The position numbers were made by a program, and so were the translations under genes. From NCBI RefSeq assembly GCF_008330225.1, contig NZ_CP042466.1:2846001-2910000 (forward strand): 64,000 nt of DNA. The letters are read 5' to 3'. This document shows, in pieces, positions 24,278 to 29,437 of this stretch. The notes beneath the pieces were generated by a model. The model had not been told where the DNA came from and searched no databases. It saw only the letters and a program-made list of their open reading frames with translations. Within the stretch, counting starts at the first letter, position 1, and every line of letters starts with the position of its first letter. The DNA comes from Geobacter sp. FeAm09. GTDB taxonomy: Bacteria; Desulfobacterota; Desulfuromonadia; Geobacterales; Pseudopelobacteraceae.

Positions 24278-24310
24278 GCCCGTGGAGGAAGGAGGAACAA
24301 CTCCACGGGC
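24278..24310 (-). terminator. Rho-independent terminator-like hairpin
   Basis: On the minus strand a 10-bp perfect stem (GCCCGTGGAG with its complement) encloses a 13-base loop and is followed by TTTTCCC. It lies downstream of the minus-strand channel gene (stop at 24440) and could end that operon, 130 bases after its stop. Confidence 0.65.
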
Positions 24311-24439: not shown

Positions 24440-25327
24440 TCAGAATACGTACAACAGGCGCGTGCCGAAGATATCGACTGCCGCGCCGTTTTTGGTGGAG
24501 AACGTATTCTGATACTGAAGCATCACCTGGACGCTGTCCGTGAGTTTGAAGTTGAAGCTGGCTCCCGCCTTGTGGCTGTCGATACGGCTGTTGGCATCGG
24601 AAACGCCGGCTGTTTTCGTTGCGGCGCCATTTTGATAGGTATAATCGCCTGCGATGAAGAAGGAGGGGGTGACGTCATAGCTCAGGTGGGTCTGGAGTTG
24701 AAAGAGCGGCTCCTTCGACTGGGTCACCTTTGCGCCGCCGCTCCCCGCATAGTCCGTGTTGTCGGTGTAAAACTCGACAGAGGGCTGAATGCCGACGACA
24801 AATCTGTCGCCGATGCCCTGTTCGATGCCGAACTCTTCCTTGAACGCCCATTGATTCGTTCCTGCGTTCAGGGTACGCGAACGGCTGTACTCGCCCAACG
24901 GCACGGTAAAGTAGGGTGAAAATCCTACGTATGTCTTGGAGGCGCGATTGTTGACCAGCCAAAACGTCGCCAGAAAACAGGGGTCCCCCATGCCCGAGGC
25001 CGAAAACTCGGGTTTGCCGCCACCTCCAAGATCAAGGTGCTGATCGTTAAAGAAAAACAGGGCTTGGTAATCAGCCATGATGCCGAAGGTCTCCTTGAAA
25101 TGGACCAACCTGAAGAAGCCCAGGTTCTGGGTATAGTTGAAGTCGCCATTTCTCTTGCCGTTGACATAGGTGCTGTCGGCGGTGATGTGTTTCGCGTACG
25201 TCAGCAGCAGGGTTGTGCCGTCGGGAGCGGGGATATAGTCCCTGGCATCGGTCTCGCCGCACCAGGCCGCTTTCGGCAGGGCCAGACAAAGACCCAACAG
25301 CAGGGTAACTCCTATTTTTCCATTCAT
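24440..25327 (-). CDS. Outer-membrane channel-like protein (Phenol MetA-degradation family)
   Basis: The 295-residue protein has a signal peptide MNGKIGVTLLLGLCLALPKA and then alternating beta strands, ending with aromatic YVF as outer-membrane barrels do. Segments such as GDPCFLATFWLVN, YVGFSPYFTVPLGEYS and the strand ending VMLQYQNTFSTKNG fit the MetA-pathway-of-phenol-degradation family (PF13557). Members sit beside hydrocarbon or aromatic-acid degradation genes and may admit the substrate. It is the third gene of a minus-strand unit after a tetrahaem cytochrome and a flavoprotein. Confidence 0.75.
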   Translation of the reverse strand: MNGKIGVTLLLGLCLALPKAAWCGETDARDYIPAPDGTTLLLTYAKHITADSTYVNGKRNGDFNYTQNLGFFRLVHFKETFGIMADYQALFFFNDQHLDLGGGGKPEFSASGMGDPCFLATFWLVNNRASKTYVGFSPYFTVPLGEYSRSRTLNAGTNQWAFKEEFGIEQGIGDRFVVGIQPSVEFYTDNTDYAGSGGAKVTQSKEPLFQLQTHLSYDVTPSFFIAGDYTYQNGAATKTAGVSDANSRIDSHKAGASFNFKLTDSVQVMLQYQNTFSTKNGAAVDIFGTRLLYVF

Positions 25328-25440
25328 TTATGCGGTTCCTTTCACGAGGTTGGGCTTTGCTCCATGCGCTCATCCCACGATCTCTCCACATTGCACGTCG
25401 TGGCAACGCGCACCTGCCCGTCTTGACAAGGCGCTGGCCG

Positions 25441-25800
25441 TTACGGAACAGCTACCTTGAAATGATGGCATTTATTGCACGACAGCGTCGAGGGGGCATG
25501 GACCTTGTGGCATAAGGCACATCTCAGCGTCTGCCCGGCGTCATGGGGCCCTCTGTGGGGGACAATGGTAATGTCCCTCCCCTCGTGGGATACGTGAAGC
25601 TCCTTCATGGGGATATTCTCGTGACACTTCAGGCAAGCCGACTTTGGGGCAGCCTTTTCCGGGGCAGCGGTACCATGGCAATCGGCACAGCTCACCTTCC
25701 CGTTATGCTTGCCCTTGACATCGTTGGAAAACGCCACGGCGGACGTCATGCTGATGCATGTGAATACGACGAAAGGCAGAACGACGATTCCTCTTTTCAT
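25441..25800 (-). CDS. Periplasmic tetrahaem c-type cytochrome
   Basis: The 119-residue protein has a signal peptide (MKRGIVVLPFVVFTCISMTS, cleavage near residue 24) and exactly four C-x-x-C-H sites at residues 38-42, 56-60, 94-98 and 108-112. Extra histidines (H32, H69, H72, H82, H86, H101, H113) can supply distal ligands. This resembles the tetrahaem electron donor of flavocytochrome c and methacrylate-reductase-like systems. It lies between the flavoprotein gene and the channel gene, so it most likely carries electrons from the membrane quinol pathway to the flavoprotein. Confidence 0.9.
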   Translation of the reverse strand: MKRGIVVLPFVVFTCISMTSAVAFSNDVKGKHNGKVSCADCHGTAAPEKAAPKSACLKCHENIPMKELHVSHEGRDITIVPHRGPHDAGQTLRCALCHKVHAPSTLSCNKCHHFKVAVP

Positions 25801-25843
25801 AACAACTCCTGGGTGTGGTTATTGGTGCCATTTCAGCAGTTAG

Positions 25844-25879
25844 CCCCGCTGCTGCGGACGTTTTGCCGCAGCAGCGGGG
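25844..25879 (-). other. Strong intercistronic hairpin
   Basis: A perfect 14-bp stem (CCCCGCTGCTGCGG at 25844-25857, complement at 25866-25879) sits between the flavoprotein stop and the cytochrome start. No T run follows on the minus strand, so it is more likely an mRNA-stabilising or partly terminating element than a full terminator. Confidence 0.6.
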
Positions 25880-25885
25880 GGGCAA

Positions 25886-27445
25886 CTATTTTTTGCCAAG
25901 CTCCTTGGCGATATGCTGTGAGGCAAAACGACCGGAAGCGATGGCGAAAGAACTGGCCATACCTTCCAGCTGCAGGTTGTAAGAATCGCCGTAAACACCG
26001 CCGGTCTCACAACCGGCAACATACAGGCCCGGGATCGGCTTCATGGTGGAGGCCTTGAGGACCTGCATGTCGGCGTTGGTGGAGGGACCCCCCAGGGTGA
26101 TCAGGGTGGCATTGGCGCCCCTTACGGCAAAGAAAGGTGCTTTGGATATAGTGCGGATCAGCGTGCGAGGTTTCGGGAATTCAGCATCGTATCCCTGAGC
26201 AGCGTAACGGTTGTTGTCTTCCACCGTCTTGGCAAATGCGGCAGGATCGACGCCCATTTTGTTTGCCAGTTCATCGGTGGAGTCGGCAACGACGATATAT
26301 CCCTTCTTCACGCCATCGGCAATGGCCTGGTCGAAGGTGTTCTTGTTGAGCTTGGTGCCGACACGGACCCAGTCGCTGTTGGAAACGTCGATCCCTTTTT
26401 CCTGCATGTAGGTTCTGATGTTGTCGTCAAATACGGACCAATATGAACCGCCGACACGTTCAACAGCCTTGTCCGCAACCATCCAGAGCGGGGCATAGCT
26501 TTCATCCATGAAGCGCTTCCCGTCTTTGGCCACCCACATATACGGCTGCCGCAACAGTGCGGCGCCAAGGCAGTCCGGCGTCGTTTTATTGGGCCTGCAA
26601 AGCTGGGTGTTGGGGTCCTGGCCGTACAGCCATGCGGCGATAGAGAGATGGGTGGACATGCTTTCGAGGCGGGCGCCGATCTTTTCAAACATCTTGATGC
26701 CGTCGCCCATATGGGAAGTCTTCGGCCCGATGATCAGGTAGTCCTGGCGAATGCCATACTTCTTCATCATTTCCGGATTGTTGTTGAAACCGCCGGTAGC
26801 CATGATGACGCCGCCCGTGGCATGCAAGCTGATCTTTTCGCCATCGGCATCAACGGCGACAAGGCCGGTGACCCTGCCATTATCGACAATCAGTTCTTTG
26901 CCGGTTGTTTCCGTCATAATGGTGCCGCCGGCCTTCTTGAATGCTTCCGTCAGCCTGGCGATAAACTCCACACCCTGGCCGTCCTTGAAGATGTGCCAGG
27001 TCCTGTTGCCGTCGTTAAACAGGGTACGAACATCGTGGAAGGTAATGCCACGGTCAGTCATCCAGTCGATGTTTTCCGCCGATGCATTAATCCAGCGCCG
27101 GATCAGCGGTCCGTTTATATGGCCATGATTGAATTCCATGGCATTCTTGAATGCCCAGTCCTTTGACAGAGCGATATACATCTGCTTCTGGAACTTTGAC
27201 TCCACGGCAAAAGTCCCTTCGATATAAAGGGAAGAACCGCCAAGAGTGGCTTCCTTTTCGACCAAAACCGTTTTGAGGCCGGACTCTGCGGCCTCGACAG
27301 CCGCGGCCAAACCGGCAGCGCCGGAGCCAACGACAACAACGTCAAAGTTCGCGTCTTTGGCATACGATGCCGTTGAAAAACCCACCAGGGAAACGGCAAC
27401 AGCAGTTAGTGAAATCATTCTTTTAATAATGCCGATCTTACTCAT
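25886..27445 (-). CDS. Periplasmic FAD-dependent reductase (fumarate reductase/flavocytochrome c-like flavoprotein)
   Basis: The 519-residue protein has a signal peptide (cleavage near residue 29), then an FAD fold with VVVGSGAAGLAAAVEAAESG. The GGSS and ATGGFNNNPEMM segments are typical of fumarate reductase/succinate dehydrogenase-family flavoproteins. It lacks a haem domain, but the next gene supplies a separate tetrahaem cytochrome. The expected His-His-Thr-Met-Gly-Gly region of soluble fumarate reductase is replaced by NATLITLGG. The usual Arg-containing HGANRLGGN region is replaced by VYGDSYNLQLEGMA. A substrate other than fumarate is therefore likely. Periplasmic reduction of an unsaturated acid is inference. 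Confidence 0.85.
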   Translation of the reverse strand: MSKIGIIKRMISLTAVAVSLVGFSTASYAKDANFDVVVVGSGAAGLAAAVEAAESGLKTVLVEKEATLGGSSLYIEGTFAVESKFQKQMYIALSKDWAFKNAMEFNHGHINGPLIRRWINASAENIDWMTDRGITFHDVRTLFNDGNRTWHIFKDGQGVEFIARLTEAFKKAGGTIMTETTGKELIVDNGRVTGLVAVDADGEKISLHATGGVIMATGGFNNNPEMMKKYGIRQDYLIIGPKTSHMGDGIKMFEKIGARLESMSTHLSIAAWLYGQDPNTQLCRPNKTTPDCLGAALLRQPYMWVAKDGKRFMDESYAPLWMVADKAVERVGGSYWSVFDDNIRTYMQEKGIDVSNSDWVRVGTKLNKNTFDQAIADGVKKGYIVVADSTDELANKMGVDPAAFAKTVEDNNRYAAQGYDAEFPKPRTLIRTISKAPFFAVRGANATLITLGGPSTNADMQVLKASTMKPIPGLYVAGCETGGVYGDSYNLQLEGMASSFAIASGRFASQHIAKELGKK

Positions 27446-27685
27446 AACGCCTCCTTATTGTTTTTGTGGAATAGATACTACTGTTACTATGAAACCATCT
27501 CCTTTCCGTCGAATATCCAACACTATTCGACTAATAGCAATTTCAAGCATCGAGAATAAAATACTGGTGTTGAGCAGAATTAACCCAAACATTCAATAAT
27601 TTGAGGTTTTAAAATACTAACCTGACAGTATGGCTTGCCTTGCTTATCCAGTATTCAACACCAATAACAAATGCCAAAACCAAAT

Positions 27686-27701
27686 AGCATTTAATATGCC
27701 A
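27686..27701 (-). promoter_or_regulatory. Sigma-54-type (-24/-12) promoter for the flavoprotein operon
   Basis: The minus strand reads TGGCATATTAAATGCT. It has GG and GC separated by exactly ten bases, matching TGGCAC-n5-TTGCW at most conserved positions. Transcription would begin near 27675 and run into the flavoprotein gene. No other site with correct spacing was found in the region. Confidence 0.55.
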
Positions 27702-27753
27702 TAACATAATATATTGTAATTATTAACTTTTTATGTTTACACATTGAAAGCGA

Positions 27754-27790
27754 AGTTCCGTTATGGTACCATTAGTTCCATTTTGGAACT
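27754..27790. promoter_or_regulatory. Two tandem dyads, probable activator binding sites (UAS)
   Basis: Site 1 is AGTTCCGTTATGGTACCA (27754-27771) and site 2 is AGTTCCATTTTGGAACT (27774-27790). They share AGTTCC-n-TT-n-TGG-n-AC and start 20 bases apart, two DNA turns. They are centred about 97 bases upstream of the predicted sigma-54 start and just ahead of the activator gene. Confidence 0.6.
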
Positions 27791-27817
27791 CAAGCGCGCT
27801 TTTGGGAAGGAGAGCAG

Positions 27818-29437
27818 ATGCAGGCGAGGGACTTCAGCGTTAAAGACCTTCTTACGTTTATCCCCGAGGAAGGGATCGTCCGCCTCATGGAACACCGCGT
27901 GCTCATCTTCGATGCGGTAGCCCTGGGACTCCTCCGGAAAGAGATCGTCGACACGTTTGGTGTTTTTGCCGCGCGAAGCATACTGACACGCTTCGGCTAT
28001 GCGCACGGCTGGCGGACCGCGGAGATATTGCGGTCGGAATATCCTGCGATATTCGCGGACTGGAGGGCCGGCTCCCACCTCCACATGATGTCGGGACTGA
28101 CCAAAACGGTCGAGTTCAACCAGTCCGACGGCAATGGAGACGAACCTTTAATCGAGGTATGTTGGCATAATTCATACGAAGCCGAGCAGCAGCTCTTGTC
28201 GTGCGGCTTGGCAGATGAACCGATATGCTGGACGCTTACCGGGTTTGCGAGCGGCTACGAGTCGTGCAAGAATCTGCGTGAAGTATATTTCGTCGAGGAC
28301 AGATGCTGCGGCAAGGGGGACTCCCATTGCCATATTGTTGGTCGCTTCAAGGAAAAATGGGGACCGGAACTCGAGCACCACATCCCCTTCTACAGCATGG
28401 AGTCCGCCGACGCCCTGCTCAGGGATTTGACCGACAAATTGAAAATCACGGAGAAACGGCTCAAGTCGAAACAGCGCCAATTGAATTTTTATGCTTCGGA
28501 AACGGAGGAGATATCCGGATTCATATCGCGCAGCAACGAGATGAAGGGCGTTATAGAACTTGCCCAGCGCATTGCGAAAGTGGATTCCTCAGTCATCGTC
28601 ACCGGAGAAAGCGGCGTCGGAAAAGAGCGCATATCCCGTTTTATCCACGACCAGTCGGTACGCACGGCCCACCCTTTTGTCGCCATAAACTGCGGGGCGC
28701 TCACGGAAACGTTGCTGGAAAGCGAACTCTTCGGCCATGCAAAAGGGGCATTTACCGGTGCGGACCGAGACCGGGCAGGACTGTTTGAAGACGCCAGCGG
28801 TGGAACCCTGTTTCTGGACGAAATAGGGGAGATCTCTCCCGCCATGCAGGTAAAGCTGCTCCGCGCGCTCCAGGAAAAGGAGATTCGGCGGGTTGGAGAC
28901 AACACGGTACGCCCCGTTAACGTCAGGATCATCGCGGCGACGAATCGCAACCTGAAGGACGATGTCGCGGCGGGGAGGTTTCGACGCGACCTGTACTACC
29001 GGCTCTGCGTCATCCAAATCACCGTCCCCCCGCTTCGTGAACGGTCTCAGGATATCCTGCCCCTTGCAAGGCTCTTCCTCGGCAAAACAGCCAGCACCAT
29101 GGGACGCGACATCGACGGTTTCTCTCCCCATGCATCGGAGCTGCTTTTGCGTTACACCTGGCCGGGAAATGTCCGCGAACTCCAAAACGTCATCGAACGG
29201 AGCCTGGTGGTCTGCAACGGGAGACGTATTGAGCCGGAAGACTTTCCCGAGGAAATCCACGTATCGCCCAGGACCCAGGTGCTGACAAACCAGGATCTTT
29301 CCCTGGAGGAAATGGAGCGGGAATATATTTTGGCCATGCTTCGCTCATGCGACGACAACAAGAAGCTTGCTGCGGCCAGACTCAAGATCGGCAAAACGAC
29401 TCTGTACCGGAAACTCGCCGAGTACGGAAAATTGTGA
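27818..29437 (+). CDS. XylR/DmpR-type sigma-54-dependent transcriptional activator
   Basis: The 539-residue activator has an XylR-N/V4R sensory part (about residues 1-220) with cysteines in ESCKNLREVYFVEDRCCGKG. A short linker helix leads to the AAA+ domain, with GESGVGKE near residue 262, the sigma-54 contact loop GAFTGAD near 310 and GGTLFLDEIGEIS. The Fis-type helix-turn-helix AAARLKIGKTTLYRKLAEYG ends the protein. XylR/DmpR relatives sense small aromatic compounds directly. It is divergent from the flavoprotein operon and has GGAAGGAGA before its ATG, so it very likely controls that operon. Confidence 0.92.
   Translation: MQARDFSVKDLLTFIPEEGIVRLMEHRVLIFDAVALGLLRKEIVDTFGVFAARSILTRFGYAHGWRTAEILRSEYPAIFADWRAGSHLHMMSGLTKTVEFNQSDGNGDEPLIEVCWHNSYEAEQQLLSCGLADEPICWTLTGFASGYESCKNLREVYFVEDRCCGKGDSHCHIVGRFKEKWGPELEHHIPFYSMESADALLRDLTDKLKITEKRLKSKQRQLNFYASETEEISGFISRSNEMKGVIELAQRIAKVDSSVIVTGESGVGKERISRFIHDQSVRTAHPFVAINCGALTETLLESELFGHAKGAFTGADRDRAGLFEDASGGTLFLDEIGEISPAMQVKLLRALQEKEIRRVGDNTVRPVNVRIIAATNRNLKDDVAAGRFRRDLYYRLCVIQITVPPLRERSQDILPLARLFLGKTASTMGRDIDGFSPHASELLLRYTWPGNVRELQNVIERSLVVCNGRRIEPEDFPEEIHVSPRTQVLTNQDLSLEEMEREYILAMLRSCDDNKKLAAARLKIGKTTLYRKLAEYGKL

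Follow-up and report, generated by a model that had tools for sequence, protein, structure and literature searches.

A stretch of 64,000 nucleotides from the genome of Geobacter sp. FeAm09 (the window, by which we mean that whole stretch) carries a recurring bacterial gene set that is apparently unnamed. A sigma-54 activator of the phenol-sensing type is divergent from an operon for a periplasmic flavin adenine dinucleotide (FAD) flavoprotein, a tetrahaem cytochrome and an outer-membrane barrel, and a gene for a transporter of the major facilitator superfamily (MFS) lies downstream. Judging from sequence comparisons, we think it probable that the set is a phenol-induced, self-contained module of anaerobic respiration whose electron acceptor belongs to the class of neutral alkenyl-phenols. 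That the genes form a module is well supported, and that the substrate class would be a neutral alkenyl-phenol rather than an aromatic acid is moderately supported, whereas we are less sure of the exact compound and of the role of the MFS protein. The features, in coordinates of the window, are these.

27818..29437, plus strand: DmpR/XylR-type sigma-54 activator (XylR_N and V4R sensor, AAA+ domain, Fis helix-turn-helix), from Pfam and Protein Data Bank (PDB) sequence matches
27775..27789, no strand: inverted repeat GTTCC-N5-GGAAC, candidate activator-binding site, from position and conservation only
27755..27769, no strand: second, imperfect GTTCC-N5-GGAAC copy (one mismatch), candidate site, from a motif search
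27686..27701, minus strand: sigma-54 -24/-12 promoter motif for the flavoprotein operon, from a motif search
25886..27445, minus strand: periplasmic FAD flavoprotein of the Tyr type (described below), vinylphenol-reductase-like, from Pfam, NCBIfam, alignment and tree
25441..25800, minus strand: tetrahaem c-type cytochrome, presumed electron donor, from Cytochrom_c3_2 and four CXXCH motifs
24440..25327, minus strand: outer-membrane barrel, PF13557 Phenol_MetA_deg, with a C-terminal Phe, from Pfam
24279..24309, minus strand: terminator-like hairpin between the barrel and MFS genes, from its recurrence in the genome
22760..24024, minus strand: MFS inner-membrane transporter gene, frameshifted, from the list of open reading frames (ORFs) and Pfam MFS_1

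An earlier note on this DNA had located four ORFs here and assigned them to families, and both locations and families agree with the ORF list and Pfam. The activator scores 91 bits for XylR_N, 236 for Sigma54_activat and 37 for HTH_8, with V4R at 28.8 bits, slightly below its cut-off of 31. The flavoprotein scores 165 bits for FAD_binding_2, the barrel 90 bits for Phenol_MetA_deg, and the cytochrome, in which CXXCH occurs at residues 38, 56, 94 and 108, 42.5 bits for Cytochrom_c3_2 with no match among PDB sequences at E 0.1. Signal peptides were assigned by eye, and twin-arginine motifs were sought by a scan of the first 60 residues; the N-terminus of the flavoprotein appears Sec-like, and the scan found no twin-arginine motif in it. 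The same note had called the set complete, which proved too narrow, because it overlooked a fifth gene, that of the MFS protein, downstream on the same strand as the flavoprotein operon; some relatives have ribBA and a haemerythrin-like gene alongside it as well. The MFS gene of the window is split over two frames by a frameshift, and intact, near-identical copies are found elsewhere in the genome.

The proposal that these genes constitute an inducible periplasmic reductase module is borne out by the recurrence of the activator, flavoprotein and cytochrome in relatives and in Shewanella. Homologues were sought in 277 genomes of the window's class and in 129 Shewanella genomes. All 19 relatives' loci chosen for the resemblance of their flavoprotein to that of the window (L089-L107) combine the flavoprotein with a tetrahaem cytochrome and an activator that we call XylR_N-type from its similarity to the window's activator, and the five Shewanella loci likewise all have an XylR_N activator and a tetrahaem cytochrome, so the neighbourhood, whose conservation the earlier note had left to be checked, is indeed conserved. 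A putative porin or OprD-like gene follows the flavoprotein in 18 of the 19 relatives' loci (the exception is L104), the commoner type having no Pfam match, and an MFS gene is present in 17, since the stretch of L096 ends before it and L104 has none. The Shewanella loci (L037-L040 and L210) carry an activator, a divergent flavoprotein, a cytochrome, an MFS gene and a PF13557-type barrel, an order confirmed with Pfam in one of the five, and a search at E 1e-120 found the flavoprotein in 5 of the 129 genomes. Moreover, the window's own genome has three more such activators beside flavoproteins, two in locus L022 and one in L030 (Pfam confirmed XylR_N in the latter and in one of the two former). 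Among titles and the opening parts of abstracts on the module, on cofactor supply and on vinylphenol respiration, the sole near relative was the methacrylate system (PMC4427408).

The flavoprotein bears most directly on the acceptor. Fumarate reductase has an Arg402, which we take to be its proton donor, and a His504 and an Arg544 that presumably bind carboxylate, the numbering being that of Shewanella frigidimarina Fcc3. In an alignment of 60 flavoprotein ORFs, one of them a broken piece, the window protein has Pro, Leu and Tyr at these positions, and the three residues are absent, with Tyr at 544, from 26 of the 27 aligned flavoproteins that lie beside an XylR_N activator, the window's included. 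The 27th, in L104, is of the Arg type and lies on the far side of an activator that is itself unusual (see below). Fcc3-type and other Arg-type rows hold Arg402, His504 and Arg544, except for L136, which is without Arg402. The best curated model for the window flavoprotein is vinyl phenol reductase (NF053717), at 318.9 bits against a cut-off of 600, while flavo_cyto_c (TIGR01813) gives 210 bits, below its cut-off of 285.45; the former model also ranks first for five other Tyr-type proteins tested, and the latter for the one Arg-type protein tested. A plasmid-encoded protein of Lactiplantibacillus that does pass the vinyl phenol reductase cut-off (784 versus 600) bears the same signature, with Tyr at 544, and is 28% identical to the window flavoprotein. 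A tree of 45 of 61 rows, from which one broken piece and 15 near-duplicates had been removed, is divided by a 100/100 branch into a Tyr side, which includes the Lactiplantibacillus protein, and an Arg side, the two types being defined by residues that also enter the tree.

Because the carboxylate clamp and the proton donor have been lost, and the vinylphenol reductase signature is shared, the acceptor is likely to be a neutral alkenyl-phenol. The earlier note had preferred an aromatic unsaturated acid, an idea that loses ground with the absence of His504, Arg544 and Arg402 and with the resemblance to vinylphenol reductase, whose substrate has no carboxylate. The channel and the phenol-type sensor would also suit p-coumarate or ferulate, which bear a phenol hydroxyl, and cinnamate specificity has reportedly arisen several times in such reductases, as Little et al. 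are said to have described in 2024. An acid of the cinnamate, coumarate or ferulate type would then be held in a carboxylate site that evolved unlike that of fumarate reductase. Nevertheless, with Pro, Leu and Tyr in place of the canonical carboxylate and proton residues, and with a nearest curated family that works on vinylphenols, we consider an acid unlikely. It is far less probable still that the protein is an ordinary periplasmic fumarate or methacrylate reductase: the plan of a flavoprotein with a multihaem cytochrome is the same as in the methacrylate system Mrd/Mcc, but the flavo_cyto_c score falls short (210 versus 285), Arg402, His504 and Arg544 are missing, the protein is off the Arg-type side of the tree, and there is no twin-arginine motif. 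The flavoprotein does not group with fumarate reductases, an outcome that the earlier note had named as one that would refute its proposal; active-site residues, family scores and tree all separate it from them, and on these grounds a fumarate or methacrylate reductase identity was rejected. A simple rule that Tat signals accompany only the Arg type is false, as L026 is of the Tyr type and has a twin-arginine motif.

The inducer of the module is probably a phenol, to judge from the sensor domain, whose PDB sequence matches are PoxR, MopR and CapR/DmpR. In DmpR the phenol hydroxyl sits between His100 and Trp128, and His100 is replaced by Tyr in the toluene/xylene sensor XylR (PMC7264223), whereas p-cresol and p-ethylphenol sensors carry the same His/Trp dyad with a modelled pocket that is larger on the far side (PMC10715001). 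The placement of the phenol hydroxyl and of zinc follows these two papers. Of 25 aligned module regulators, 24, the window's included, keep the His and Trp that anchor phenol, and all 25 keep the zinc ligands Cys-Glu-Cys-Cys; the exception is L104, in which Cys and Leu replace the dyad. The pocket of the window's activator differs from that of MopR in having Val for Phe132, Thr for both Val112 and Val114, and Glu for Ser166. As a separate observation, the dyad-less activator (L104:7504-9141) adjoins an Arg-type flavoprotein with a Tat signal, and may thus be a natural control for the pairing of sensor and reductase. An 82% identical homologue of this Tat-type flavoprotein, with one in-frame stop, is found in the window's genome (G000:C1:3720712-3722271).

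Expression appears to be controlled from a sigma-54 promoter. In 27 intervals, each consisting of the gap between activator and operon plus 200 bases of the first downstream ORF (for L104, the side facing the Arg-type flavoprotein), the motif TGGCAY-N6-TGCW occurs in the operon direction in 26 and on the opposite strand in none. The window has two matches in 64 kb, one of them at 27686-27701, versus 0.63 expected, so the strength of this motif rests on its recurrence. Two GTTCC-N5-GGAAC-like repeats lie upstream of the sigma-54 motif in the window and likewise in Shewanella loci, with the exact site also present in L037-L040, and such repeats are missing from most other activator-operon intervals. 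Since matches with one mismatch are no rarer than chance (three in the 64-kb window versus 2.9 expected), the candidate binding site is backed by position and conservation only.

Several observations weigh against a phenol-sensing module for neutral alkenyl-phenols. The score of 319 is far below the cut-off of 600, and the substrate may therefore differ from vinylphenol; ketosteroid dehydrogenases, too, probably use a Tyr at this position, and the substrate might be some other neutral ketone or phenol. The ligand of the sensor may differ from the substrate of the reductase, and the L104 activator, which has lost the dyad, has an Arg-type flavoprotein on one side and a Tyr-type one on the other. 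Conversely, Tyr-type flavoproteins occur without an adjacent XylR_N activator in L021 (two), L023, L025, L026, L035, L036, L108, L169 and L170; L108, the twentieth of the relatives' loci, has a flavoprotein, a barrel, a seven-haem cytochrome and an MFS gene. Long branches make inner placements in the tree unsure, and the alignment is gappy at 365-381 and sound only at 402, 504 and 544. Finally, structure prediction for the flavoprotein from five sequences reached a predicted local distance difference test (pLDDT) value of 36, as did that for the Shewanella MFS protein from four, values too low for a fold search.

In the mechanism that we propose, a small phenolic would enter through the barrel, reach the cytoplasm and bind the activator, which would switch on the operon. 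The Sec-exported flavoprotein would acquire FAD in the periplasm. Electrons would pass from the quinol pool through the tetrahaem cytochrome to the flavoprotein, which would reduce the C=C double bond of a neutral alkenyl-phenol such as 4-vinylphenol, 4-vinylguaiacol or coniferyl alcohol, with the Tyr that replaces Arg544 holding the substrate oxygen in lieu of the carboxylate clamp. The MFS protein would do a job that is independent of the substrate, for which our best guess is the export of FAD to the periplasm. That the operon has a tetrahaem cytochrome of its own suggests a link to the respiratory chain. Alternatively, the module might detoxify phenolics or act as a redox sink without conserving energy, as a toxic phenol would be a fitting inducer and the best NCBIfam model of the MFS protein, although below its cut-off, is one for multidrug resistance. 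However, the dedicated cytochrome suggests a respiratory tie like that of the methacrylate system, as far as the covered portions of its description go (PMC4427408), and we consider detoxification or a redox sink unlikely.

The MFS gene accompanies reductases with great regularity. A search at E 1e-30 finds homologues of it in 27 of the 277 genomes, among them all 21 genomes with the flavoprotein at E 1e-60. We read 50 MFS genes (46 of 47 search rows plus four from Shewanella), 22 of which had originally been fetched for their flavoprotein, and 48 have a flavoprotein on the same strand no more than 5.3 kb away. The two exceptions are L086, where the nearest known flavoprotein is about 9 kb off by coordinates, and L166, at a contig end. 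Both Tyr-type reductases and Fcc3-type flavocytochromes are found among these neighbours. Five MFS copies in the window's genome are 97-98% identical in DNA over some 1.1 kb and a sixth 86%, with identity that runs from the gene start to near the end and not beyond the gene. Four of the proteins compared are 94.7-99.5% identical, whereas their flavoproteins are 29-41% identical, and one near-identical copy belongs to the Arg-type module L088. In another genome, G003, a 2.8-kb stretch that covers most of ribBA together with a haemerythrin-like gene and the MFS gene is 99.9% identical in two modules, the MFS proteins being 100% and the flavoproteins 39.5% identical; relative to the counterparts in G005, the flavoprotein is 96% and the MFS protein 84-86% identical. 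We take this identity between modules in the MFS region to be gene conversion or recent duplication. A ribBA gene (by Pfam and NCBIfam) lies within 0.65 kb of the MFS gene in 7 of the 50 cases. In 10 others, all from one genus, it lies some 3-3.8 kb past the MFS gene and is either a module member or a housekeeping gene. A haemerythrin-like gene is found within 1.5 kb of the MFS gene in 18 of the 50. In some loci a small haemerythrin-like gene stands just before the MFS gene (L021:11919-12347, L023:5554-6081 and L102:5781-6209), scoring 48 bits as a bacteriohemerythrin versus a cut-off of 84.

Export of FAD would fit a transporter that is exchangeable between reductases of acid and neutral type, serves FAD enzymes without a Tat motif and is sometimes joined by ribBA. 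A competing view, to which we give somewhat less than an even chance, is that the MFS protein carries the substrate, product or inducer of the reductase over the inner membrane. Because XylR_N sensors are cytoplasmic, something must enter. Three Shewanella genomes that were searched have a single MFS match each, inside the module, which speaks against FAD export, and two of them contain many other flavoproteins; moreover, Sec-type Fcc3-like proteins exist without an adjacent MFS gene of this family, as in L211. On the other hand, near-identical MFS copies accompany Tyr-type modules and the Arg-type L088 alike, modules without XylR_N also have the gene, and there is the close ribBA in those seven cases. 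An MFS neighbour for every Sec-type flavoprotein, which we also considered, can be rejected, as several Fcc3-like places are far from any MFS gene: the stretch around the Fcc3-like flavoprotein in L211 gave no MFS match, and L212 gave a distant one of 27 bits. The signal-peptide tally over 30 loci is incomplete, an antisense ORF having been taken for the flavoprotein in L176, L188, L189 and L202. No FMN riboswitch reached the gathering score in seven loci with ribBA. Matches to the Rfam family V_AS9 within ribBA genes (L105:14971-15074 and L160:12042-12145) are probably to coding sequence and not to an RNA, and the window's genome has a second ribB-type gene, split over two frames and away from the modules (G000:C1:2077911-2078485).

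The four module genes of the window have a G+C content of 54-56%, whereas the whole window has 61% and the MFS gene 67%, and the nearest flavoprotein found outside this genome is that of Shewanella (61-64% identity), the best match in other genomes among the 277 being 43% identical. This combination suggests that the four genes were acquired by horizontal transfer. The hairpin at 24279-24309 has seven copies genome-wide at up to three mismatches (control, none), six of them inside the window or in stretches around reductase flavoproteins and the seventh near 2711955. Other modules have neighbours of different kinds. A clustered regularly interspaced short palindromic repeat (CRISPR) array, in which a 37-base repeat occurs at least 53 times, adjoins two reductase modules (L022:672-4500; G000:C1 near 1222672). 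In L160:14242-18999 the flavoprotein gene is in two pieces with what by eye look like IS21-type transposition genes between them, adjoined by a barrel gene, ribBA and an MFS gene. Finally, genes that by eye resemble those of a 2-hydroxyacyl-CoA dehydratase or benzoyl-CoA-reductase-type system and its activator have a reductase module on one side and an MFS copy on the other (L022:15804-18231 and L086:2431-3216).

We can tentatively imagine, as an outcome that is possible but on balance doubtful, a portable respiratory kit in which a phenol sensor, a cytochrome-linked Tyr-type reductase of neutral, lignin-derived alkenyl-phenols and an outer-membrane channel are joined to a shared MFS FAD-exporter unit, which in some relatives includes ribBA and which passes between reductase modules by gene conversion. 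If this were true, the kit would contain, to our knowledge, the first FAD exporter of the MFS family dedicated to periplasmic flavoenzymes, and we know of no earlier respiratory vinylphenol-type reductase with its own phenol sensor. If our main reading of the module is right, bacteria of the window's group can use neutral lignin fragments in respiration by means of modules that are substrate-specific and phenol-inducible. The pairing of sensor and reductase would provide a direct path from gene to candidate substrate, which is the main obstacle in this large reductase superfamily, and from the linkage of the MFS gene comes a testable idea of how Sec-exported periplasmic flavoenzymes in this group are supplied with FAD.

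Among known systems, the Shewanella flavocytochrome c3 fumarate reductase and the urocanate reductase, both periplasmic, are the best PDB sequence matches of the flavoprotein, but Fcc3-type rows retain the three residues that the window protein has lost. Vinylphenol reductase (VprA) is similar in being the top-scoring curated family, in the active-site signature of one member and in tree side. It differs in that the window protein is below the cut-off and 28% identical to the Lactiplantibacillus member, which by eye begins at the FAD domain without a signal peptide, and in regulation, a sigma-54 activator contrasting with the LysR-type regulator described for VprA in the portions covered (PMC10295242). 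The activator shares its domain order, His/Trp phenol anchor, zinc ligands and sigma-54 promoter motif with DmpR, MopR and PoxR. These govern phenol catabolism, whereas the window's activator faces a reductase and has an altered pocket lining. The role proposed for the MFS protein would resemble that of Bfe, which according to the parts covered exports FAD to the periplasm in Shewanella (PMC8176591, PMC5655446), although Bfe, like YeeO, belongs to the MATE family and the transporter of the module to MFS_1. Of the characterised systems, Mrd/Mcc, the methacrylate redox system of Geobacter sulfurreducens AM-1, comes closest. The likeness, so far as the covered portions of its description extend, lies in a periplasmic FAD flavoprotein and a separate multihaem cytochrome encoded by adjacent genes of one operon, and a GTP cyclohydrolase gene 505 nt downstream of mcc recalls the ribBA near the module in some relatives (PMC4427408). 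The substrates of Mrd, which carries a Tat signal, are methacrylate and acrylate, and those portions mention no phenol sensor, channel or MFS gene (PMC4427408). The module of the window, in contrast, has a Sec-like signal, a Tyr-type site, a phenol-type sigma-54 activator, a barrel and an MFS gene.

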